Assembly: GCF_030127105.1 (NCBI RefSeq)
Contig: NZ_CP126161.1
Coordinates: forward strand, 2,852,001-2,916,000
Direction: 5' to 3'
Source: Haloarcula pelagica
GTDB taxonomy: Archaea; Halobacteriota; Halobacteria; Halobacteriales; Haloarculaceae
Length of the DNA: 64,000 nt
Shown here: positions 1 through 54,565 of the stretch, piece by piece
Layout of the letters: each line of letters opens with the position of its first letter
Numbering within the stretch: position 1 is the first letter of the stretch
Made by a program: the position numbers and the translations under genes
Notes under the pieces: generated by a model
Told to the model about the DNA's origin: nothing
Databases searched by the model: none
Seen by the model: the letters and a program-made list of their open reading frames with translations, nothing else

Positions 1-191
1 GTGTGGACCCGGGCGAACAGACCGACCTCTCCGAGGCCGACCACGACGGGGTCGACACCACAGCGGTCGCCGACCGGTTCTCCGAGATCGTCGCGGACCA
101 CGTCGGGGCGCTCGGCGACGATGTCGCCGCCGACGAGGCCGAGGAGAGCGACGAGATAGCGGCACGCTTACAAGCGTTGGGTTATAAATAG
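1..191 (+). CDS. C-terminal end of a sulfatase-like protein (truncated by window edge)
   Basis: The frame is open from the left edge and stops at 189-191, so only about 62 C-terminal residues are seen. The piece starts with DPGEQTDLS and ends with a short helix and the terminal LGYK. Many haloarchaeal arylsulfatase/alkaline-phosphatase-superfamily proteins end this way, with a 'DPGE..DLS' segment after the core followed by a terminal 'LGY'. None of the catalytic half is visible, so the family call rests on the tail alone. It lies 6 bp upstream of the GtrA-type gene on the same strand and may share its transcript. Alternative: any acidic haloarchaeal protein with a similar tail. Confidence 0.5.
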   Translation, partial: VDPGEQTDLSEADHDGVDTTAVADRFSEIVADHVGALGDDVAADEAEESDEIAARLQALGYK

Positions 192-197
192 TCGCCG

Positions 198-608
198 ATG
201 GCGTTTGCCGAACGGTCGTACGTCTGGAACCCGCGGCTGGTTCGGTTCTTCGTCGTCGGCGTGACCGCCGCGTCGATCCAGACGGTGTTGCTGTGGCTGT
301 TCCTGGAGTTCGCCGACCTGAACTACCTCGTCGGCGCGGTCATCGCGATCGAGGCGACGATCCTCCTCCAGTACGCGCTCAACAACGCCTGGACGTTCAG
401 CCAGACCAGACACACCTCCCGCTGGGAGTATCTCGTCGGGATGGGGAAGACGAACCTCGTCCGCGGCTCGGCAATTCCGATCCAGCTCGGGCTCCTGTAC
501 GCCTTCGTCAACTGGGGCGGCGCGGTCCCGCTCGTCGCGAACGGCGGGGCGATCGCGCTGACGGGGATCTACCGCTACGTCTTGGACGCGCGGTGGACCT
601 GGGGCTGA
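198..608 (+). CDS. GtrA-like family membrane protein
   Basis: 136 residues with about four hydrophobic helices. The arrangement is that of the GtrA/DPMS-like family: an N-terminal RFFVVGVTAAS helix, a second helix, a central 'NNAWTFS' segment, and a C-terminal 'YVLDARWTW'. These small integral membrane proteins are thought to help move polyprenyl-linked sugars across the membrane for surface glycan synthesis. The ATG at 198 follows the sulfatase-like stop by 6 bp, so the two may be one transcriptional unit. The family assignment is good. The substrate and the partner glycosyltransferase are not visible here. Confidence 0.8.
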   Translation: MAFAERSYVWNPRLVRFFVVGVTAASIQTVLLWLFLEFADLNYLVGAVIAIEATILLQYALNNAWTFSQTRHTSRWEYLVGMGKTNLVRGSAIPIQLGLLYAFVNWGGAVPLVANGGAIALTGIYRYVLDARWTWG

Positions 609-615
609 GCACGAC

Positions 616-625
616 CCTTTTATAC
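616..625 (+). promoter_or_regulatory. TATA box of the hyuAB operon
   Basis: The T/A-rich run CCTTTTATAC lies about 25 bp upstream of the ATG at 648, the spacing expected for a leaderless haloarchaeal transcript. There is no Shine-Dalgarno-like sequence before the ATG. Confidence 0.55.
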
Positions 626-647
626 GCCAGCGCCCCGGATCGCCGGT

Positions 648-2629
648 ATGCACGAGACGGTCCGGCTGGGCGTCGATGTCGGCGGGACCTTCACCGATGT
701 CGTCCTCGCCACGGGGCGCGATCTCACGACCGCGAAGGTCCCCTCGACCGTCCCGCAACACGAAGGGGTGCTCGACGGCATCGGCGTGGCGCTGTCGGCC
801 GCCGACATCGACCCGACTGCGGTCGACCAGTTCCGCCACGCGACGACGGTCGCGACGAACGCGTTGCTCGAAGGGACCGGCGCCGAGACGGCGCTGGTCA
901 CGACAGAGGGCTTTGCCGACGTGCTGGCGATCGGTCGTCAGGATCGGCCGTCGCTGTACGAGCAGTCTGTCGGGCGACCCGACCCGCTGGTCCCGGCAGA
1001 GCGGCGCTACGAGGTCGACGAGCGCGCGACCGTCGAGGGAATCGAGCGGGCGGTCGACACCGACGAAGTCCGGGCGCTGGCCGAGTCCATCGAGGCCGAT
1101 GCGGTCGCGGTCGCGTTCCTGCACGCCTACGCGCACCCGGAGAACGAGCGAGCGGCCGCGGAGACGCTGCGGGCGGAACTGGACGGTCCCGTCTCGGCGA
1201 GCCACGAGGTCCTGGGCGAGTTCCGCGAGTACGAGCGGACGGCGACGACCGTCGCCGACGCCGTCCTGACGCCGGTGATCGACGACTACGTGGGGCGGCT
1301 GGCCGCGGGCGCGGCCGAACGCGGCCTCCCGCTCCGCGGATCATGCAGTCCAACGGCGGCATCACGGACGCCGAGACCGTCCGGCACAACGCCGTGACGA
1401 CCGCGCTGTCGGGGCCGGCGGCGGGCGTCGTCGGCGCCAGCGCCTTCGAACCCGACGACGCCGACGGACTGATCACCTTCGACATGGGCGGGACTTCGAG
1501 CGATGTCTCGCTGGTCCGTGACGGCGCGGTCGAGCGGACGACCGAGGCCGACGTTGGCGGCCGACCGGTCCGCGTGCCGATGGTCGATGTCGAGACCGTC
1601 GGGGCCGGCGGCGGGTCGATCGCCTGGGTCGACGCCGGCGGCGCGCTCAGGGTCGGCCCGCGCTCGGCCGGCGCCGATCCCGGCCCGGCCTGCTACGGGA
1701 ACGGCGGGACCGACCCGACCGTGACCGACGCCGCGCTCGTGCTCGGGTATCTCGGGGCGGACACGACCTTGGGCGAGGACCTGACCCTGGATGTCGAGGC
1801 GGCGACCGACGCCCTCGCCGACCTGGCCGACGCGGCCGGACTCGACGGCCCCGTCGCGGCCGCGAGCGGGGTCTACGATGTCGCCAACGCGGCGATGACG
1901 CGCGCCGTCAGGAGCGTGACCGTCGAGCGGGGCCACGACCCACGCGAGTTCGCGCTGGCCGCCTTCGGCGGCGCGGGACCGATGCACGCCGCGGCGCTCG
2001 CCGACGGTCTCGACCTCTCGACGGTGGTCGTCCCGCGAGCCAGCGGCGTCCTCTCCGCCCGGGGCCTGCTGGCCGCCGACGAGCGCCACGACGCCGCTCG
2101 AACGTACCGGGCCGAACTGTCGACGGTCGAGCGGGACGCGGTCCGCGACGTGCTCGACGACCTCGAAGGGGCGGTGCTCGCGGACACGAGCGACCCGGAC
2201 GCCGCGACGGTCACGTTCCAGGCCGACTGCCGCTACGCCGGCCAGAGCTACGAACTCGGCGTCGATGTCGGCGAGTTCGACCGGGCGAGCGTGGCCGCAC
2301 GGTTCCACGCCGCGCACAACCAGGCCCGCGGGTACAAACTGCCCGAGGAACCGGTCGAACTGGTCACGCTCAGAGCGACCGCGACTGTCTCCCACGCGCT
2401 CCCGGCCACGGGACACGACGCGGCGGGCGACCCCGTCAGCGGCCGTCGACCGGTCCACTTCGAGTCCCGGCGGACGACGCCGGTGCTCGACTGGGACGCG
2501 CTCGGGTCCGGTTACCGCAGGGCGGGACCGGCGATCGTCGAGGGCGGCGAGAGTACCGTCGTCGTCCCGCCCGCCTGGACACTGACCGTCGACGACCGCG
2601 GGACGCTCTCCCTGGAGGCGAAGCGATGA
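648..2629 (+). pseudogene. hyuA: Hydantoinase/5-oxoprolinase subunit A, frameshifted
   Basis: The reading frame opens at ATG 648 with RLGVDVGGTFTDVV, the actin-like ATP-binding start of the HyuA/oxoprolinase A family. It runs about 229 residues and loses homology near 1329-1334. The family continues without a gap in another frame with RIMQSNGGI, SGPAAGVVG and FDMGGTSSDVSL, then a normal C-terminus ending at 2629. One missing base in the CCGCTC stretch explains the break. The restored protein is about 660 residues, the family's normal size. HyuA and HyuB together cleave cyclic amides such as hydantoins or 5-oxoproline using ATP. The next gene, hyuB, overlaps the stop (ATGA), so the operon structure is intact. 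A sequencing or assembly error is as likely as a true null allele. Confidence 0.8.
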
Positions 2630-4161
2630 CCGACCTCGACGCCGTGGAACTGGAGATCCTCCGGAACCAACTGGAGAGCGTCGCCGAGGAGATGGGGCAG
2701 GTGTTGATCCGCGGGGCCTTCTCGCCGAACATCACCGAGCGGCGGGACTGCTCGACGGCGCTGTTCGACGCCGACGGCGACCTCGTCGCACAGGCCGAAC
2801 ACATCCCGGTCCACCTGGGGGCGATGCCGGAAGCGGTCGATGCCGTGCTGGCCCACGACCCGCGGCCGGGCGACGTGTTCGTCCTGAACGACCCCTTCGA
2901 GGGCGGGACCCACCTCCCGGACGTGACACTGGTCTCGCCGATCCCCGCTGAGGGCGACATCGTCGGCTACACCGTCTCGCGCGCACACCACGCCGATGTC
3001 GGGGGGATGGCACCCGGGAGCATGCCGGCCGGTGCCCGTGAGATCCATCAGGAGGGCGTCCGCATCCCGCCGCTCCGGTTGGTCGACGGCGGGACGGAAC
3101 GGGCGGGCGTGCTCGACCTGTTGCTGGCGAACGTCCGGAACCCGGAACAGCGGCGGGCCGACCTGCGCGCCCAGCGGGGTGCCAACGAGCGGGGCGGAGA
3201 GCGGGTCGGGGAGCTACTAGCCGACCACGGGGACCGCCTGCTCGCGGCGTTCGACGCGGTGCAGGACTACTCCCGCCAGCGCGTCGAGGCGGAACTGGCG
3301 GCGATACCCGACGGTACCTACAGCGCCCGCGATGTCATGGAAGGCGATGGCGTCGCCGACACCGACATCCCGATCGAGGTCACCGTCACTGTCGACGGGA
3401 GCCGCCTCGACGTGGACTTCGCGGGCACGGCCCCACAGGTCGACGGCAACGTCAACGCGCCGCTGTCGGTCGCAAAGAGCGCCGTCTACTTCGTCGTCCG
3501 GTCGGTCACCGACCCCGACGTGCCGCCGAACGAGGGCTGTTACGACCCCGTGAGCGTCCACGCGCCGCCGGGGTCGCTCGTCAACCCCGAGCCACCCGCG
3601 GCGGTCGTCGGCGGGAACGTCGAGACGAGCCAGCGGGTCGCGGACGTGGTCTTCCGGGCGCTCGCAGAGGCGGTCCCCGACCGCGTCCCCGCGGCCGGCC
3701 AGGGGACGATGAACAACGTCGTCGTCGGCGCGACCGACTTCAGCTACTACGAAACCATCGGTGGCGGGATGGGTGCAAGCAGCGAGGGCGACGGGCCGTC
3801 GGGCGTCCAGGTCGGGATGACGAACACGCTGAACACGCCCGTCGAAGCCCTAGAGGCGGCCTACCCGATCACCGTCGACGAGTACGGACTGCGTACCGGC
3901 AGCGGCGGCGCCGGCCGACATCGCGGCGGTGACGGCCTGATCCGTGCGTTCACCGTCGAGACTGCCGCGACCGTCTCGCTGTTGACCGAGCGGCGCCGAC
4001 ACGCGCCGTGGGGACTCGACGGCGGTGCCGACGGCGCGCCGGGCCGCAACTACATCGACGGTGAGTCCGTCCCGGCGAAGGTCACACGCGAGGTCGCGGC
4101 GGGGACGACCGTCCGTATCGAGACCCCTGGGGGCGGCGGTCATGGCGACCCCGAGCGGTGA
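2626..4161 (+). CDS. hyuB: Hydantoinase/5-oxoprolinase subunit B
   Basis: 511 residues. Start ATG 2626 overlaps the hyuA stop as ATGA, typical of translational coupling. Family landmarks run in order: the N-terminal 'LEILRNQLESVAEEMGQVL', 'ERRDCSTALFDADG', the 'HIPVHLGAM' region, 'NDPFEGGTHLPD', 'RAHHADVGGMAPGSMP', and a glycine-rich C-terminus ending in 'ETPGGGGHGDP'. HyuB is the partner of the ATP-binding A subunit in ATP-dependent cyclic amide hydrolysis and is cytosolic. It looks intact, so activity depends on whether the hyuA frameshift is real. The exact substrate (hydantoin, N-methylhydantoin or 5-oxoproline) cannot be read from the sequence. Confidence 0.9.
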   Translation: MTDLDAVELEILRNQLESVAEEMGQVLIRGAFSPNITERRDCSTALFDADGDLVAQAEHIPVHLGAMPEAVDAVLAHDPRPGDVFVLNDPFEGGTHLPDVTLVSPIPAEGDIVGYTVSRAHHADVGGMAPGSMPAGAREIHQEGVRIPPLRLVDGGTERAGVLDLLLANVRNPEQRRADLRAQRGANERGGERVGELLADHGDRLLAAFDAVQDYSRQRVEAELAAIPDGTYSARDVMEGDGVADTDIPIEVTVTVDGSRLDVDFAGTAPQVDGNVNAPLSVAKSAVYFVVRSVTDPDVPPNEGCYDPVSVHAPPGSLVNPEPPAAVVGGNVETSQRVADVVFRALAEAVPDRVPAAGQGTMNNVVVGATDFSYYETIGGGMGASSEGDGPSGVQVGMTNTLNTPVEALEAAYPITVDEYGLRTGSGGAGRHRGGDGLIRAFTVETAATVSLLTERRRHAPWGLDGGADGAPGRNYIDGESVPAKVTREVAAGTTVRIETPGGGGHGDPER

Positions 4162-10977: not shown

Positions 10978-11888
10978 GCCGACCCCTCCGTGGCCGCGGA
11001 GAACACGTCACCGAGCGAGGGCTCCCTGATTGCGAAGTCGTCGAAGCCGACGCCGCCACGGGCGACCCGATCCAGCACGGAGACTTTCGTCTGGCCCCCG
11101 CTACAGGTGACCGTGAGTTCGCCCTCGCCGGCGGCCACCGCCGAGACGCCGTCGATTCCCCGGAGGTCACCGATCAACTCCTCGGGCGTGGCCTCGACGT
11201 AGATACTCAGCGTGGTGTCCGCGTCGAGCTCCTGCCGGAGCTGTGAGACCGGCCCTTCCTGGACGAGTCGACCCTGCTGGAGGATGCCGACGCGGTCGGC
11301 GACGGCTTCGACCTGTGCCATGATGTGACTGGAGAACAGCACTGTCGCGCCGCGGTCGGCCTCCTCGCGGACGACTCGGCGGAGCATTCGGGCGCCGTTT
11401 GGATCGAGGCCAGTCGTCGGTTCGTCCAGGACGAGCAAGCGGGGGTCGCCGACCAGCGCCATCGCCAGCGCGAGGCGCTGTCGCAGCCCTTTCGAGAGGT
11501 CGCCCGCCGGGCGGTCGCGAGCGTCCGCTTCCAGTTCGACCCGGTCGAGCAGGCGTTCCGGGTCGTCCGTCGCTTCCTTCGTGTCGATCGCCTGTCCGAG
11601 GTGTTCGAGCGGGGTGAGCTGCTCGTAGACGCCGTACCCTTCCAGGAGGGTTCCGGTCTCCTGGCGGATCGCGACGCTGCGGTCCTGTACGTCCAGATCG
11701 AACACCGAGGCGCTCCCGCTGGTCGGCTGCATGAAGCCCAGGAGCATGTTGATCGTCGTGGACTTCCCCGCACCGTTGGGGCCGAGGAAGCCGTACACTT
11801 CGCCGTCGCCGACCGACAGGGTGAGGTCGTCGACGGCAGTCACGTCACCGAACTGCTTGGTCAGATTGTGTAGCTGTAGGAGGGTCAT
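10974..11888 (-). CDS. ABC transporter ATP-binding protein
   Basis: 304 residues. Walker A FLGPNGAGKSTT near residue 35, ABC signature LSKGLRQRLALA, Walker B LLVLDEPTTGLDPNG, and a switch histidine in 'VLFSSHIMAQVEAVADRVGI'. The C-terminal 80 residues form a small regulatory domain, as in CcmA/NatA-type exporters. It is the energising subunit for the overlapping ABC-2 permease gene. Substrate unknown. Confidence 0.9.
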   Translation of the reverse strand: MTLLQLHNLTKQFGDVTAVDDLTLSVGDGEVYGFLGPNGAGKSTTINMLLGFMQPTSGSASVFDLDVQDRSVAIRQETGTLLEGYGVYEQLTPLEHLGQAIDTKEATDDPERLLDRVELEADARDRPAGDLSKGLRQRLALAMALVGDPRLLVLDEPTTGLDPNGARMLRRVVREEADRGATVLFSSHIMAQVEAVADRVGILQQGRLVQEGPVSQLRQELDADTTLSIYVEATPEELIGDLRGIDGVSAVAAGEGELTVTCSGGQTKVSVLDRVARGGVGFDDFAIREPSLGDVFSAATEGSA

Positions 11889-47352: not shown

Positions 47353-47604
47353 ATGGGTGTGAGCGTGGCCGACGACGTAGACGTACGTGACATCACGCCG
47401 ACCGCGTGGCGGTTGTTGCGTGTCGCGGCCGGGTTCGGACAGCGGGAGGTCGAGTCGGAGGTCGACGACATCATGCAAGCGCACATCTCGATGCTGGAAA
47501 GCGACACACGGAGTCTCTCGGAGGCGCGACTGGCGGAACTGTTTGCCCTCTATCGAGGCGAACTGGACGACGAACAGGTCTGTGTCCTGGTCGAACACTT
47601 CTAA
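47353..47604 (+). CDS. Small XRE-like helix-turn-helix protein
   Basis: 83 residues from ATG 47353. 'TAWRLLRVAAGFGQREVESE' and 'QAHISMLESDTRSLSEARL' form an XRE-type HTH whose second helix (QAHISMLES) reads like the recognition helix. A short acidic end (LDDEQVCVLVEHF) follows. It lies 34 bp before the DASS transporter gene on the same strand, so it may regulate it. No antitoxin partner is seen. Confidence 0.7.
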   Translation: MGVSVADDVDVRDITPTAWRLLRVAAGFGQREVESEVDDIMQAHISMLESDTRSLSEARLAELFALYRGELDDEQVCVLVEHF

Positions 47605-47638: not shown

Positions 47639-49186
47639 ATGACCTGGCGTGGCCTCCAGACACCGCGTCGGACTGCCGGTGCCCTCGCCGTCGCGCTCGC
47701 GCTGACGGCAGGTGTCGCCGGTGCGCCGACGCCGCCGGGGCTCGGCCTGGCCGCACAGTACGCGCTGGCGACGATGGTGCTGGCGGCGACGCTGTGGGTC
47801 ACGACGGCGCTCCCGCTCCCGGTGACGGCGCTGTTGATACCGGTCGCGCTGACGGTCTTTGGCGTCTACGGGGAGATGGAGGCCGCACTCTCGGGCTTTG
47901 CCGATCCGCTGATCTTCCTCTTTATCGCGGGGTTCATGCTGGCCGAGACGCTCCAGACCCACAACATCGACCGCCGGATCGCGCTGTATCTCATCAACCG
48001 ACTCGGCCGGTCGCCCCGGATGCTCATTCTGGCGATCATGATCGCGACGGCGGGGCTGTCGATGTGGGTCTCGAACACGGCGACGACGGCGATGATGACG
48101 CCGGTCGCACTGGGTGTCCTGGCGGAGGTCGTCGGCCGGGAAGCGACCGAGGACGGCGTCTCGAACATGCGTGTGGCGACGCTTCTGGGAACGGCCTACG
48201 CGGCGAGCGTCGGCGGTGTCGGGACGCTGATCGGGACCCCGCCGAACGTCGTCGCCGTGGCCTTCCTCGACCAGTTGGTCGGGGTGGAGATCTCGTTCGC
48301 CCAGTGGCTCGCGGTCGGACTCCCGATCGTCGTGATCACGCTCCCGCTGACCTGGTACGTGCTGACGTTCTGGCTGTACCCACCGGAGATCGACGACGTG
48401 ACCGACGCACAGGCCCAGGCGGGCCAGTACCTCCAGGAGGAAGGCCCGCTGTCGCCGGCCGGCCGCCGCGCGGCGTACATCTTCGCTGCGACGGCCGGCC
48501 TGTGGATTCTCGGAGGGCTCGGTGTGCTGTTCCAGGGGCTGGTCCCCGAGCCGTGGTTCGTGACGCTGTTTGGCGGCTCGGGCGAGACGATATTCGGGCT
48601 GTCCGGCCACCGCGGGATCCTCTATTTCGTCGTCGTCGGGCTGTTCGCCATCCCTGCGCTGGTCCTCTCGGGGGCCGACGAGTGGGAGAACCTCGTCGAG
48701 ATCGACTGGGGGACGATCATCCTCTTTGGCGGAGGGATCTCGCTGGCCGACGCGCTCGCGGAGACGAACGCGACGGAGTGGCTCGCCCGCTCGGTGTTCG
48801 ACGCGGTCGTCGGCGCGCCGCTCGTGCTCGTGGTACTGGCGGTCGTGGTCTTCACCGTTCTGGTGACCGAACTCTCCTCGAACACGGCGACGACGACGAT
48901 CGTCGCGCCGGTACTCATCGGAGTCGGGAGTGTGTTGTCGGGTACGCTGGGTGTCGATCCTGTTCCTGCGGCGATCTTCCTCACCGTCACCGGCGCCATC
49001 GCGGCGAGTTTCGCCTTCGCTTTGCCCGTGGCGACGCCGCCAAACGCCATCGTCTTCGGCAGCGGACACCTCCGGCAGCGGGACATGATCCGCGCAGGTG
49101 TCGTGTTGAACGTGTTGATGACGCTCGTGCTCACCGCGCTGGTCGTCGTCTTCTTCGCGACGATCTGGCCAACGATTCTTTGGTGA
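47639..49186 (+). CDS. SLC13/DASS-family anion:sodium symporter
   Basis: 515 residues and about 12 helices in two related halves. The SNT motifs of the family occur twice: 'GLSMWVSNTATTAMMTPVAL' and 'TELSSNTATTTIVAP'. 'IGTPPNVVAVAF' and PVATPPNAIVFGSG form the matching hairpins. These proteins import dicarboxylates, citrate or sulfate with Na+. The presence of TPPN in both halves favours the dicarboxylate/phosphate-sulfate type. The upstream HTH gene may be its regulator. Confidence 0.88.
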   Translation: MTWRGLQTPRRTAGALAVALALTAGVAGAPTPPGLGLAAQYALATMVLAATLWVTTALPLPVTALLIPVALTVFGVYGEMEAALSGFADPLIFLFIAGFMLAETLQTHNIDRRIALYLINRLGRSPRMLILAIMIATAGLSMWVSNTATTAMMTPVALGVLAEVVGREATEDGVSNMRVATLLGTAYAASVGGVGTLIGTPPNVVAVAFLDQLVGVEISFAQWLAVGLPIVVITLPLTWYVLTFWLYPPEIDDVTDAQAQAGQYLQEEGPLSPAGRRAAYIFAATAGLWILGGLGVLFQGLVPEPWFVTLFGGSGETIFGLSGHRGILYFVVVGLFAIPALVLSGADEWENLVEIDWGTIILFGGGISLADALAETNATEWLARSVFDAVVGAPLVLVVLAVVVFTVLVTELSSNTATTTIVAPVLIGVGSVLSGTLGVDPVPAAIFLTVTGAIAASFAFALPVATPPNAIVFGSGHLRQRDMIRAGVVLNVLMTLVLTALVVVFFATIWPTILW

Positions 49187-49247: not shown

Positions 49248-49301
49248 TTTATTAATGCGGATCACAACGGCCTGTATAGGGCGTGTATCACTGATACACG
49301 C
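49248..49301 (+). promoter_or_regulatory. Promoter and perfect palindromic operator of the liv operon
   Basis: A TTTATTAAT box (49248-49256) predicts transcription from about 49280. Directly there lies GCGTGTATCA-C-TGATACACGC (49281-49301), a perfect 10-bp inverted repeat around one base, ending 13 bp before the ATG at 49315. Position over the start site is typical for a repressor. As RNA it would form a tight hairpin near the 5' end. Confidence 0.75.
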
Positions 49302-49314
49302 ACGTACCGAAGCT

Positions 49315-50661
49315 ATGACCCGAAAACACGACCGAAGACAGTTCCTCAAGATTGCAGGGAGTACAGGCGTGATTGGGCTGACGGGCCTCTCCGGTTGCTC
49401 CGGAGACGGCGGCAGCGGCGGTGGTGGCGACGGCGGAAGTGGCGACGGCGGCAGTGGTGACGGCGGAAGCGGCGACGGCGGCAGCGGTGACGGCGGTTCG
49501 ACAGGCGAGAGCGGCGGCGGGTCGAACGTGCTCACACTCGGCGGTTCGATGAGCCTGTCGGGCGACAACGCCGACCTCGGGCAGCTGTATCGGGACGCCT
49601 ACGAACTCACGATCCAGCGAATCAACGAGAGCGGCGGTGTCGAGGCGGGTGACGGCAACACCTACGAACTGGAGATGATCCTCCGGGACGACGGGACCGA
49701 CGCCTCGACCTCGAAGTCGATCTACCAGGAGCTGATCGACCGCGAAAATGTCGACTATCTCTTGGGACCGTACTCCAGTACGGTGACGCTGCCGGCCAGT
49801 GCGGTCGCCGCACAGAACCAGAAGCCGATGGTCGAGGGCGGTGGCGCGAGCCCCGAGATCTTCGCGCAGGGCAACGAGTGGATCTTCGGCCTCCTGCCGA
49901 CGGCCAACAAGTACGCCGGGTCGTTCATCGACATGTGTCTCGCACAGGAGGAGACGCCCGAATCCATCGCGATTCTCGCGGAGGACGGCACGTTCAGCCA
50001 GTCCACCGCAGAGGGTGCCAGACAGAAGATCGAGCAGACCGACCTCGAACTGGTCGTCGACCAGACGTTCCCGTCGAGCACCTCCGACCTCTCGACGAAC
50101 CTCGGCCGAGTCCGAGACAACGACGCCGACATCCTGCTGTTGTGTGCCCACCAGAAGCACAACATCATCCTGGCCAACCAGATGGAGAGCCAGAACGTCA
50201 ACGTCGACGCGGCGATGGGGACCGTCGGCAGCCTCAACGACTCGTTCAAAAACGAGGTCGGCGCTAACGGCGACTACATGTACGGTCCCTCCTCGTGGGC
50301 GGTCAACGCGAACTTCGACGACCCGGTGTACGGCCAGACCGGCGACTTCGTCTCGGCGATCGAGGAGAACTACGGGTACACGCCGGACTACCACAGCGCG
50401 GCCGGCGAGGCCGTCATCTTGACGTTCATGAACGCGTTCCAGAACGTCGACGAGGTCGCGCCGACGCCCGTGCGCAACGAGATCCGGAACTCGGACTTCT
50501 CGTCGGTGTACGGCACCGTCGCCTTCGACGACTCCGGTGTCATCAACAAGAACATGCTGGTCTACCAGTGGCAACCTGACCCCGGCCTCCAGATCACCTA
50601 CCCCGACAACGTCGCTCAGTCCGAACCCATCTACCCGATGCCGGACTGGAGTGAACGCTAA
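49315..50661 (+). CDS. livJ: Branched-chain amino acid (or related) ABC transporter binding protein
   Basis: 448 residues. Twin-arginine lipoprotein signal: RRQFLKIAGS with lipobox LTGLSGC, so it is exported folded and lipid-anchored. A Gly/Ser/Asp linker of about 40 residues follows. The periplasmic-binding type I fold runs to the end ('TLGGSMSLSGDNADLGQLYR', 'AEDGTFSQSTAEGARQKIEQ'). First gene of livJ-H-M-G-F-usp. Ligand could be branched-chain amino acids, urea, amides or another small amine. Confidence 0.88.
   Translation: MTRKHDRRQFLKIAGSTGVIGLTGLSGCSGDGGSGGGGDGGSGDGGSGDGGSGDGGSGDGGSTGESGGGSNVLTLGGSMSLSGDNADLGQLYRDAYELTIQRINESGGVEAGDGNTYELEMILRDDGTDASTSKSIYQELIDRENVDYLLGPYSSTVTLPASAVAAQNQKPMVEGGGASPEIFAQGNEWIFGLLPTANKYAGSFIDMCLAQEETPESIAILAEDGTFSQSTAEGARQKIEQTDLELVVDQTFPSSTSDLSTNLGRVRDNDADILLLCAHQKHNIILANQMESQNVNVDAAMGTVGSLNDSFKNEVGANGDYMYGPSSWAVNANFDDPVYGQTGDFVSAIEENYGYTPDYHSAAGEAVILTFMNAFQNVDEVAPTPVRNEIRNSDFSSVYGTVAFDDSGVINKNMLVYQWQPDPGLQITYPDNVAQSEPIYPMPDWSER
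49402..49500 (+). repeat. Gly/Ser/Asp-coding repeat in the binding-protein linker
   Basis: Repeats of GGCGACGGCGGAAGT type encode GSGDGG units directly after the lipobox cysteine. It forms a flexible, acidic tether between lipid anchor and ligand-binding domain, prone to copy-number change without loss of frame. Confidence 0.8.
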
Positions 50662-50665
50662 GACG

Positions 50666-51553
50666 ATGGCGGCGACACAGTTCGTCGTCAACGGCCTGCT
50701 CGTCGGAGCGCTGTTCGCGGCGGTCGCTGTCGGCTTCGCACTCATCTGGGGCGTCGTCGACATCATCAACCTCGCACACGGCGAGATGGTGATGCTGGGC
50801 GGCTACACGTCCTACTGGGTGCTGTCGTTAGTGACGGGCAACGCGGAGGGGTCGCCGCTGCTGTTCCTGGCGACCGTCCCGGTCGCTATCGGCGTGCTGT
50901 TCGTCGTCGGCTACGCGCTCCAGCGGACGCTCGTCTCACGGGTCATCGGGACGGACATCTTCCTGACGCTGCTCGTGACCTTCGGGGCGAGTATCGCCAT
51001 CCAGCAACTGGCCCTGCAGGCCTGGTCGGCCAATCCACGGTCGATCCGGGTCGCCTTCGCCGACCCGTCGCTGACGGTCGCGGGCGTCGTCGTTCCGAAG
51101 ATGAAACTCGTCGCGTTCGTCGGGGCACTGGTCCTGACCGCACTGTTGTTCGTCTTCCTGAAACAGACCCGGACCGGACGGGCGATCCGCGCGGTCGCAC
51201 AGAACCCCGAGGCAGCTGCCCTCGTGGGTATCGACGTGGAACACACCCGGGCGATGACCTTCGGGCTCTCGTCGGCGATCGCCGGCGGCGTGGGTTCGTT
51301 CATCGCGGTCATCCTCAACATCCAGCCACAGATGGGACTGATCTACACGCTCAAGAGCTTCGTCATCGTCGTCTTCGGCGGCGTGGGTTCGATCCCCGGC
51401 GCGCTCGTCGGCGGCCTCCTGCTCGGGTCGGTCGAGGAACTGGTCGCCGGGTTCGTCTCCTCACAGTGGACGCTCGCGGTCAGTTTCTCGCTGCTGATCG
51501 TCCTGCTCGTGGTCAAACCCAAGGGCCTGTTCGGTGAGGGGGTGAACGAATGA
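50666..51553 (+). CDS. livH: Liv-type ABC permease LivH
   Basis: 295 residues from ATG 50666. Eight helices. 'IWGVVDIINLAHGEMVMLGG' and 'AVAQNPEAAALVGIDVEHTR' are the LivH signatures (the latter is the coupling helix), and 'VFGGVGSIPGALVGGLLLG' is the C-terminal conserved loop. It pairs with LivM in the membrane. Start 4 bp after livJ; stop overlaps livM (ATGA). Confidence 0.93.
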   Translation: MAATQFVVNGLLVGALFAAVAVGFALIWGVVDIINLAHGEMVMLGGYTSYWVLSLVTGNAEGSPLLFLATVPVAIGVLFVVGYALQRTLVSRVIGTDIFLTLLVTFGASIAIQQLALQAWSANPRSIRVAFADPSLTVAGVVVPKMKLVAFVGALVLTALLFVFLKQTRTGRAIRAVAQNPEAAALVGIDVEHTRAMTFGLSSAIAGGVGSFIAVILNIQPQMGLIYTLKSFVIVVFGGVGSIPGALVGGLLLGSVEELVAGFVSSQWTLAVSFSLLIVLLVVKPKGLFGEGVNE

Positions 51554-52623
51554 GCACCGAGACCGACGACTCCGGACTCCTCAGGTCGGTCTTCCCGCCC
51601 GACCAGATCGACCGGCTGTTCCGGATCTGTGACGCCCACGGCTGGAAGCTCATCCTTGCCGGTGCGGTCTTCGGTGCGCTCCCGCCTGTCCTTGGCCTCC
51701 AGTCGGGGTACTACATGACCGTCCTCTCGGAGATGTACCTCTTTGCGATCCTGGCGCTGTCGTGGGACATCGTCGGCGGGCAGACCGGCTACCCGAGTTT
51801 CGGGAACATGGCCTTCTTCGGGATCGGCGCGTACACGACGGCGATCCTGGTCAAGGACTTCGCGGTCGCGTTCCCGGCGGCGTTCGTCGTCGCCGGCCTG
51901 GTCGCGACCGCCTTCGCCCTGGTCATCGGGATCATCGTCCTGCGGCTACGGGGCCACTACTTCGCGATCGCGACGCTCGGAGTGTTGCTCGCGGCCCAGC
52001 AGGTCTCCCGGAATCTCGACATCACCGGCGGCGCAAGCGGAAAGATCCTGCTGGAGACGCCTTCGGGGACGGAGTTCTACTACCTGTTCCTGGGCGTCCT
52101 GGTCGCCGAAGCGGCGGTGATCTACTACCTCTCGGGCACCCGGTTCGGGTTCGTGCTCAACGCCATCCGGGACGACGAGGGCAAGGCCACCGCCATGGGA
52201 TTCAACACGACCTACTACAAGACCGCCGCGTGGATGCTGGCGGCGATGTTCACCGGCTTCGCCGGCGGCGCCTACAGTCTGTTCAACACGTTCATCGACC
52301 CACAGACCGCCTACAACGGCGCCTGGAACGTGGAACTGATCGCGATGGCGTTGCTGGGCGGATCCGGGACCGTCGCCGGTCCGATCATCGGTGCCTTCGG
52401 CCTGCATACGGTCATCGAGGTCGTCGAGACCTACGCCGTGGGCTGGCAACTCGTCCTGTTGGGCCTTGCGGTCATCGTGACCGTGATCGTCATCCCGAAG
52501 GGGCTGGTGGGCTCGCTACGGGAGTACGCCAGCCAGATGGAGTACTACAAACACGGCGGGATGGCTGCCGCCGACGACAGCGCCGACACGGACGACTCGG
52601 CCGCGGGAGGTGACTCCCCGTGA
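51550..52623 (+). CDS. livM: Liv-type ABC permease LivM
   Basis: 357 residues, about nine helices. 'LSWDIVGGQTGYPSFGNMAF' is the LivM opening motif, 'NAIRDDEGKATAMGFNTTYY' the coupling helix, and 'LLGGSGTVAGPIIGAF' the conserved loop. Second membrane subunit. Its C-terminal 25 residues are an acidic tail outside the usual family length. It overlaps livH and livG by 4 bp each. Confidence 0.93.
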   Translation: MSTETDDSGLLRSVFPPDQIDRLFRICDAHGWKLILAGAVFGALPPVLGLQSGYYMTVLSEMYLFAILALSWDIVGGQTGYPSFGNMAFFGIGAYTTAILVKDFAVAFPAAFVVAGLVATAFALVIGIIVLRLRGHYFAIATLGVLLAAQQVSRNLDITGGASGKILLETPSGTEFYYLFLGVLVAEAAVIYYLSGTRFGFVLNAIRDDEGKATAMGFNTTYYKTAAWMLAAMFTGFAGGAYSLFNTFIDPQTAYNGAWNVELIAMALLGGSGTVAGPIIGAFGLHTVIEVVETYAVGWQLVLLGLAVIVTVIVIPKGLVGSLREYASQMEYYKHGGMAAADDSADTDDSAAGGDSP

Positions 52624-53405
52624 GCCAGGCCACCGACGCGCCGGTGACCGACCCACAGGGTGACCGTGCCGTCCTCCGGACCGACGGCGTTACCAAACGT
52701 TTCGGTGGGTTGACCGCCGTCGACGATGTCGACATCCAGGTCGACGAAGGCGAGATCGTCGGACTCATCGGGCCCAACGGTGCCGGAAAGTCGACGCTGT
52801 TCAACTGCATCACCGGCACGCTCGACGCCGACGAGGGCAGCGTCTACCTCCAGGGAGAAGACGTGACCGACTGGCCCGAGTACAAGATCGCCCGGGCGGG
52901 ACTCGGACGGATGTTCCAGGAGACCCGGATCTTCGGGGACATGACCGTCCGGAAGAACCTCCTGATCGCGGCTCAAGAGGCCGGTGCCGGCGCGGGGAAC
53001 CTCCTGCGCCGGCCCGACGACTCGCTGCTGGGCCGTGCCGACGAACTACTGGAGTACGTCGACCTGGGCGGGCTGGCGGACGTACGGGCCGGCCGACTGA
53101 GCTTCGGCCAGCAGAAGCTCATCGAGTTCGCGATGGCGCTGATGTCCGACCCGGAGATCATGCTGATGGACGAACCCGCCGGGGGGATCAACCCCTCGAT
53201 GGTCGAGAAGCTCATCGAGTACATCCGCACCGCGAACACCGACGAGGAGGCGACGATCTTCCTGATCGAACACAACATGGACTTCGTCATGGAGATCGCC
53301 GACCGGATCTACGTGCTGGCCCACGGCGAGCGCATCGCCGAGGGCACGCCCGAACAGATCCAGAACGACCAGCGCGTCCTCGACGCGTATCTGGGGAGGG
53401 AATGA
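52620..53405 (+). CDS. livG: Liv-type ABC ATPase LivG
   Basis: 261 residues from GTG 52620, overlapping the livM stop (GTGA). Walker A GLIGPNGAGKSTLFNC, signature LSFGQQKLIEFAMALM, Walker B IMLMDEPAGGINPSMVEK, and the LivG-type extended tail 'GERIAEGTPEQIQNDQRVLD'. One of two energising subunits of the transporter. Confidence 0.93.
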   Translation: MSQATDAPVTDPQGDRAVLRTDGVTKRFGGLTAVDDVDIQVDEGEIVGLIGPNGAGKSTLFNCITGTLDADEGSVYLQGEDVTDWPEYKIARAGLGRMFQETRIFGDMTVRKNLLIAAQEAGAGAGNLLRRPDDSLLGRADELLEYVDLGGLADVRAGRLSFGQQKLIEFAMALMSDPEIMLMDEPAGGINPSMVEKLIEYIRTANTDEEATIFLIEHNMDFVMEIADRIYVLAHGERIAEGTPEQIQNDQRVLDAYLGRE

Positions 53406-53406
53406 G

Positions 53407-54150
53407 ATGGCGACCACAGACACATCCACCACGACCGACGACACGCTGTTGTCGATGCGCAACGTCACCTCGGGCTACGGCAACACGACCGTCCTGCACG
53501 ACGTGAGCATCGGCGTCGAACAGGGAGAGATCGGCTGTCTCATCGGCCCGAACGGGTCGGGGAAGTCGACGCTGATGAAGAGCATCTACGGCTTCGCCGA
53601 TGTCCAGGCGGGGACGGTCAGCTTCCGCGACCAGGAGATCACCGGGCGCTCGCCCCAGGAGAACCTCGCCGGCGGGATGAGCTACGTCCTCCAGGACGCC
53701 AGCGTCTTCCCCCGGATGAGCGTCCACGAGAACATGCTGATGGGCGGGTACGTCTTCGACGACGACGACGAGGCCGCCGAGCGCGCCGAAGAACTGTACG
53801 ACGAGTTCCCGATCCTGGGCGACATCCGTGGCCAGAAGGCCGGCACGCTCTCGGGCGGTCAGCGCCGCCTGCTCGAACTGGCCCGCGCGCTGATGGTCGA
53901 TCCCGACCTGATGATGCTCGACGAGCCTTCGATCGGCCTCGAACCGCGCTTCATCGACGACGTGTTCGAGCGCATCGAACAGCTCAACGACCTCGGGACG
54001 ACGATCCTGCTGGTCGAACAGAACGCCGAGAAGGGACTGTCCGTCGCCGACCGCGGGTTCGTCCTTGCCAGCGGCGAGATCAAGTTCACCGGCTCCGGCA
54101 CCGAACTCCTCAACAACGAGGAGGTCGGCCGGCTCTACCTCGGGGGCTAA
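53407..54150 (+). CDS. livF: Liv-type ABC ATPase LivF
   Basis: 247 residues starting 1 bp after livG. Walker A CLIGPNGSGKSTLMKS, 'MSYVLQDASVFPRMSVHENM', signature LSGGQRRLLELARALM, Walker B LMMLDEPSIGLEPRFID, and the end 'SGTELLNNEEVGRLYLGG' typical of LivF. Second ATPase of the system. Confidence 0.93.
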   Translation: MATTDTSTTTDDTLLSMRNVTSGYGNTTVLHDVSIGVEQGEIGCLIGPNGSGKSTLMKSIYGFADVQAGTVSFRDQEITGRSPQENLAGGMSYVLQDASVFPRMSVHENMLMGGYVFDDDDEAAERAEELYDEFPILGDIRGQKAGTLSGGQRRLLELARALMVDPDLMMLDEPSIGLEPRFIDDVFERIEQLNDLGTTILLVEQNAEKGLSVADRGFVLASGEIKFTGSGTELLNNEEVGRLYLGG

Positions 54151-54151
54151 C

Positions 54152-54565
54152 ATGTACCGTGTACTCGTTCCCGTCGACGACGACCCGGACCGCGCCCGCG
54201 GCCAGGCCGCCTTCGTCGCGGAACTGCCCGACGGCACCGACACGGTCGAAGCGATCGTCACGCACGCGCTGACGCCCGAGCAGGCCGAGGCGCCCGACGA
54301 CCTCAAGTCGGTCGACCGCGTGGAGACGGTTCGGCTGGTCCAGGACTACCTCGACGAGCACGACATCGACCACCAACTCGCCGAGGCGCGGACACCGCCG
54401 GCTGACGGCATCCTCGATCTGGCTGCCGAGTTCGGCGTCGACCAGATCGTCATGGGGTCGCGCAAGCGCTCCCCGACCGGGAAGGTCGTCTTCGGCAGCG
54501 TCGCCCAGCAGGTACTGCTGGAAGGCGACGTGCCGGTGACGGTCGTCGGTGCCCGCGAGGCGTGA
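54152..54565 (+). CDS. Universal stress protein, last gene of the liv operon
   Basis: 137 residues starting 1 bp after livF. UspA fold: 'MYRVLVPVDDDPDRARGQAA' at the start and the nucleotide-binding end 'VMGSRKRSPTGKVVFGSVAQ' with QQVLLEGDVPVTVV, so it probably binds ATP. Tight spacing shows it belongs to the transporter operon. Haloarchaeal transporters often carry a Usp gene, which may sense ATP or regulate uptake. Confidence 0.9.
   Translation: MYRVLVPVDDDPDRARGQAAFVAELPDGTDTVEAIVTHALTPEQAEAPDDLKSVDRVETVRLVQDYLDEHDIDHQLAEARTPPADGILDLAAEFGVDQIVMGSRKRSPTGKVVFGSVAQQVLLEGDVPVTVVGAREA

Follow-up and report, generated by a model that had tools for sequence, protein, structure and literature searches.

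A perfect 21-bp palindrome in front of a liv-type uptake operon of Haloarcula pelagica is very probably the operator of c1, a small protein encoded at 47353–47604, which would act as a local repressor of the uptake operon; comparison of genomes suggests that the same pair of protein and site is used across haloarchaea. The window, the whole stretch of DNA analysed, is 64,000 nucleotides long. The features discussed below are as follows.

47353–47604, + strand: c1, an 83-residue small protein, predicted lambda-repressor-like helix-turn-helix (HTH), proposed regulator (profile, structure model, co-occurrence)
47639–49186, + strand: SLC13/DASS sodium-coupled anion symporter (TIGR00785, PF00939), with its own start lacking the palindrome
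49248–49255, + strand: putative TATA-like box TTTATTAA of the liv promoter (11 of 13 livK promoters have an AT-rich hexamer at −43, counted from the centre of the palindrome)
49281–49301, no strand: perfect 21-bp palindrome, proposed operator, conserved core TGTATCACTGATACA at 49284–49298 (sequence and comparison)
49315–50661, + strand: livK-like substrate-binding protein (PF13458)
50666–51553, + strand: livH-like permease (PF02653)
51550–52623, + strand: livM-like permease (named from gene order)
52620–53405, + strand: livG-like ATPase (named from gene order and sequence)
53407–54150, + strand: livF-like ATPase (named from gene order and sequence)
54152–54565, + strand: universal stress protein, usp, the last gene of the operon (PF00582)

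The palindrome and the liv operon

The inverted repeat GCGTGTATCA-C-TGATACACGC has exact arms of 10 + 1 + 10, as the sequence-only reading had described it. It ends 13 bp before livK, and its centre lies 24 bp from the livK ATG at 49315. Its length, taken alone, is within chance expectation: a perfect palindrome (loop of 0 or 1) with arms of at least 10 bp turned up in 15 of 40 sequences simulated with a first-order Markov model at the size of the window, and the window has one other 10-bp arm pair. In the 4.46-Mb genome of the organism, the palindrome is the sole site at up to two mismatches, and the three additional sites found at three mismatches resemble background. A multi-site regulon in this genome, sought with both the half-site and the palindrome, was rejected on account of this single site. 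As far as the motif tells, the regulon in H. pelagica is one operon. Since neither the length of the palindrome nor its uniqueness in its own genome is remarkable, the case rests on the comparison between genomes.

The c1 gene stands directly before the SLC13 gene, which precedes the liv operon; all are on the same strand, and c1 lies 1.7 kb upstream of the palindrome and the operon. The genes livK, livH, livM, livG, livF, and usp are tightly packed, in agreement with the six-gene uptake operon proposed earlier. Genes were called with a home-made codon-usage caller, whose start codons may be off (it put livK at 49369, not 49315). A scan for sigma-70 promoters and terminators, which is ill-suited to archaea, returned nothing. 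The named relatives of the locus belong to Haloarcula and Halomicroarcula.

The SLC13 symporter scores 339.5 bits against a cut-off of 198.6 bits for TIGR00785, and 235.1 bits against 27 bits for PF00939. The LivK-like protein passes the threshold of PF13458 but reaches 75 of the 477 bits required for NF011933, the high-affinity branched-chain amino-acid binding protein, and is therefore classed from its sequence as a HAAT-type binding protein. LivH likewise falls far under its curated cut-off.

Conservation of the site and its target genes

Fourteen genomes of the genus have a close livK orthologue, and in 13 of these GTGTATCANTGATACAC is present at the same distance from livK; the exception is G010. 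This conservation upstream of orthologous liv operons supports the earlier proposal that a regulator has its operator at the liv promoter. The further proposal, that the sequence is specific enough to be a probe for a regulon, holds for related genomes; in the genome of H. pelagica itself, the site is unique. Class-wide, the core TGTATCANTGATACA was found in 61 of 391 haloarchaeal genomes, against 2 genomes for a reversed control pattern. The near-invariant part of the operator core reads GTATCA-N-TGATAC.

We classified 67 exact sites, which are the site in the window and those on 66 loci (L094–L159). Every one is at a gene start, and none is unassigned. The class-wide total is 71 exact sites; ten livK sites of the genus lie outside the classification and are covered by the livK comparison above. 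At 52 of the 67 sites, the gene is a DASS/SLC13 permease with its ATG at the palindrome centre. The remainder belong to genes of the universal-stress-protein (Usp) family (9 sites, ATG at +7), to livK (4 sites, ATG at +24 or +25), and to a CitMHS-type citrate permease (2 sites, ATG at +13). In the SLC13 genes with the start codon in the operator, the second codon is ATA, which accounts for 3.4% of the Ile codons in the genes called around the sites. A start codon within an operator means that the first codons of the protein are constrained at the level of DNA.

What might these transporters carry? The nearest solved relatives of the DASS permeases are the NadC-family transporters with VcINDY, and a malic enzyme gene is in the same cluster in two genomes (G009 and, by clustering, its counterpart in G016). 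The targets (DASS and CitMHS) and the malic enzyme neighbour suggest carboxylate uptake. The nitrogen or branched-chain amino-acid direction taken by the sequence-only reading is not borne out by the other targets, which are DASS dicarboxylate-type permeases, the CitMHS citrate permease, and Usp. The window operon shares with the Liv/HAAT branched-chain amino-acid ABC operons the gene order of substrate-binding protein, permease, and ATPase. It differs from them in standing behind an SLC13 gene, in having usp as the last gene, and in an operator common to carboxylate-type permeases. Because of this common operator, the substrate of the liv-type ABC transporter need not be a branched-chain amino acid, and the carboxylate-type targets, together with the malic enzyme neighbour, hint that it may be a carboxylate.

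Several other arrangements were seen in the same comparison. On a plasmid of Halomicrococcus gelatinilyticus (L209), two operator-like sites, possibly tandem operators, are found 22 bp apart, at 11026 and 11048, before livK. Both ends of contig C1 of G011 (14–3238 and 3263717–3267051) hold the palindrome, c1, and livK, with the low-end copy fragmented; the copies reflect either a duplication or an assembly overlap. A distinct, incompletely palindromic element, GTGTATCAGGGATAGAC, occurs at G001:C15:557470–557486, and similar sites are present in G003, G007, G008, G014, G019, G023, G024, G027, G029, G030, and G031. This element is conserved across many genomes of the genus, some of them without c1 (G001, G008, and G023), and in several genomes it lies a few kb from a distant LivK-like gene.

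Co-occurrence and predicted fold of c1

The c1 gene is present in 86 of the 391 genomes of the class. All 61 genomes with the exact core have it, and none of the 305 genomes without c1 has the exact core (Fisher, 1.6e-51, with genomes treated as independent, which kinship violates). Of the 32 genomes of the genus, 17 have c1, and the core is present in these same 17. The other 25 c1 genomes of the class all have a variant with one or two mismatches at the start of SLC13 or livK, G114 (as L199), G211, G336, and G358 among them. When the named c1 loci were searched individually, 68 of 69 held the site at up to two mismatches (43 exact, 19 with one, and 6 with two). Over the same 1.22 Mb, two of four scrambled palindromes matched one locus each, and the other two matched none. 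The one locus with c1 and no site on its fragment is L195, from Haloferax profundi; in G358, apparently the same genome, an SLC13 copy on another contig has the site.

The co-occurrence is partly inherited, and part of it is linkage, since most genomes have c1 next to SLC13. At every classified SLC13 locus, c1 neighbours the SLC13 start on the same strand, at a distance of about 5 kb in L139. All 8 close SLC13 orthologues (64–71% identity) in genomes without c1 lack the site, with 4–6 mismatches at best, whereas all 3 SLC13 genes with c1 elsewhere in the genome have kept it, with 1, 1, and 2 mismatches. The site is thus kept where c1 is distant and missing where c1 is absent, which argues for a factor that acts in trans. 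Of nine more distant SLC13 homologues, seven come from genomes that lack c1, and two are the second copies in the c1 genomes G017 and G114; none of the nine has a site (5–8 mismatches). G010, the exception among the livK orthologues, has livK but lacks c1 and any close SLC13 match; the site before its livK has decayed and now shows three mismatches. In L187, c1 is followed by the operator and livK, with no SLC13 gene between. With a co-occurring c1 gene 1.7 kb upstream, the earlier reading was probably mistaken in placing the gene for the factor elsewhere.

The c1 family has no match above cut-off in Pfam or NCBIfam. Weak matches to HTH_3 (PF01381) were obtained for 14 of 18 members, with a best E of 0.001, and to HTH_31 for 11 of 18; c1 of the window itself scores 15.4 bits against the HTH_3 gathering cut-off of 23 bits. 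A profile search against PDB sequences gave a weak lambda-repressor-like match only (E 0.18). An AlphaFold2 model based on 47 members has a pLDDT of 92.5, a pTM of 0.82, and five main helices, and its top structural matches are mostly Cro/CI-type regulators, including C.Kpn2I, ImmR, and P22 c2. The VIA-align Z values of 8.1 to C.Kpn2I and 7.0 to P22 c2 are middling, and the best Foldseek E, 0.13, is modest. Thus, c1 is predicted to be a lambda-repressor-like helix-turn-helix protein, the model having the five-helix fold of that class at a modest Z. Helix three of the fold bears an invariant QAHxSMLE, which parallels the near invariance of the operator core. There is no room in c1 for a separate ligand domain.

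Phage Cro is a Cro/CI-type (XRE) single-domain repressor, and c1 is like such repressors (P22 c2 and the restriction-modification C protein C.Kpn2I) in its length of about 80 residues and its predicted five-helix lambda-repressor-like fold, in which the third helix is conserved. The c1 system also resembles theirs in its short palindromic operator over the probable transcription start and in a local target beside the regulator gene. However, c1 is archaeal, its proposed role is the control of nutrient uptake, and its sequence falls under the Pfam thresholds. Furthermore, the examined c1 loci have no operator upstream of the c1 gene itself, and a gene that is probably leaderless can have its start codon within the operator. 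Literature searches found no report of the motif or of c1. The operator reading is strongly supported, with c1 as the putative regulator, an unnamed small local helix-turn-helix protein of a Cro/CI-like kind.

Promoter geometry and the proposed mechanism

In each of the four target classes, TATA-like AT-rich boxes precede the operator. Their most frequent position, from the operator centre, is about −34 for SLC13 (scattered), −43 for livK, −23 for Usp, and −17 for CitMHS. For the liv operon, transcription would start about 25 bp past the TATA-like box TTTATTAA. This puts the start at the left edge of the palindrome or immediately upstream of it, which agrees with the earlier placement of the palindrome at the predicted transcription start. 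With this spacing, the operator would cover or abut the start. A protein bound downstream of TATA is reported to inhibit RNA polymerase recruitment in archaea (PMC10817205). Since the operator lies downstream of the TATA-like box, c1 is most likely a repressor.

In the mechanism that we propose, the 15–17-bp dyad TGTATCANTGATACA would be bound by a c1 dimer. This dyad either separates the TATA box from the start codon or includes that codon, and it would cover or abut the transcription start. The bound protein would block initiation and so repress the uptake operon locally. Across the haloarchaea, the pair of c1 and operator would control a DASS/SLC13 permease, joined in some genomes by a Usp gene or a CitMHS permease. 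Its target would be the liv-type ABC operon next to SLC13 in the Haloarcula group, in Halobellus, and in some further haloarchaea.

Single-domain helix-turn-helix proteins can activate as well as repress. It is conceivable, if unlikely, that c1 binds the palindrome and activates, or that it acts as a switch with another factor; the co-regulated genes are uptake genes, which might need induction, and we infer the direction of regulation. However, a protein bound at the site would stand in the way of initiation, since in all four target classes the site follows a TATA-like box or is at the start codon; archaeal activators usually bind upstream of BRE/TATA (PMC10817205). Repression by c1 is the reading that we prefer.

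That the binder is a different regulator, encoded elsewhere, with c1 merely linked to the permease, seems to us improbable. One candidate would be a TrmB-type protein: in two genomes, the Usp gene that the palindrome leads is immediately followed by a second full-length TrmB gene (NF047392, 609 bits), at L094, 10381–11907, and L096, 10071–11597 (G009 and its counterpart in G016). However, TrmB matches occur in all 32 genomes of the genus, 31 of them over the cut-off, and the palindrome occurs in 17, so TrmB is not present and absent together with the site and was rejected as the binder. Moreover, c1 tracks the palindrome also when it is not adjacent and, in L187, when SLC13 is missing. TrmB of Haloarcula hispanica resembles the putative regulator c1 in that it, too, comes from haloarchaea and has a palindromic motif close to metabolic genes (PMC10817205). 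It differs in being a large winged-helix sugar sensor of another fold, with TrmB and Regulator_TrmB domains, in a 19-bp motif at many genes (PMC10817205), and in a family that, unlike the c1 site, is present throughout the genus. Separately, PadR-like small winged-helix genes (cluster 7, 17 loci: L107, L108, L110–L113, and eleven more) lie a few kb from some SLC13 sites; they were dropped as candidates because they are absent from most sites.

It is very improbable that the palindrome works at the RNA level, by folding into a 5′-terminal hairpin that governs the translation or the stability of the message. In the liv operon the palindrome may sit within the leader, and a perfect stem would form there. 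However, the SLC13 genes have the start codon inside the palindrome, and the Usp genes have the ATG at +7 and the TATA-like box at −23, so a hairpin does not fit those genes; if the messages are leaderless, transcription would leave out half of the palindrome or the whole of it. In addition, the exact palindrome is restricted to genomes with c1. A functionless palindrome could arise by chance at this length, as the simulated windows show, and its own genome has no second site, but its conservation effectively excludes chance: 13 of the 14 livK orthologues of the genus have it at the same position, and it is found in 61 of 391 genomes, the reversed control in 2.

With c1 retained as the putative repressor, we think it rather likely that c1 and its operator form a portable haloarchaeal module. 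Its protein would belong to a family of one-domain Cro-like repressors that is unannotated in the libraries searched, and its operator would stand before at least four unrelated kinds of genes (DASS permease, CitMHS permease, ABC operon, and Usp). In the commonest form, the start codon of a leaderless gene would be built into the palindrome, and in the lineages with the liv-type transporter, it is the ABC operon that has the operator in front of it, and the permease next to c1 lacks one. In this way, a protein family unnamed in both Pfam and NCBIfam is assigned a likely job and a likely DNA target, and one palindrome leads to a prediction of regulator, operator, and targets across many haloarchaeal genera.
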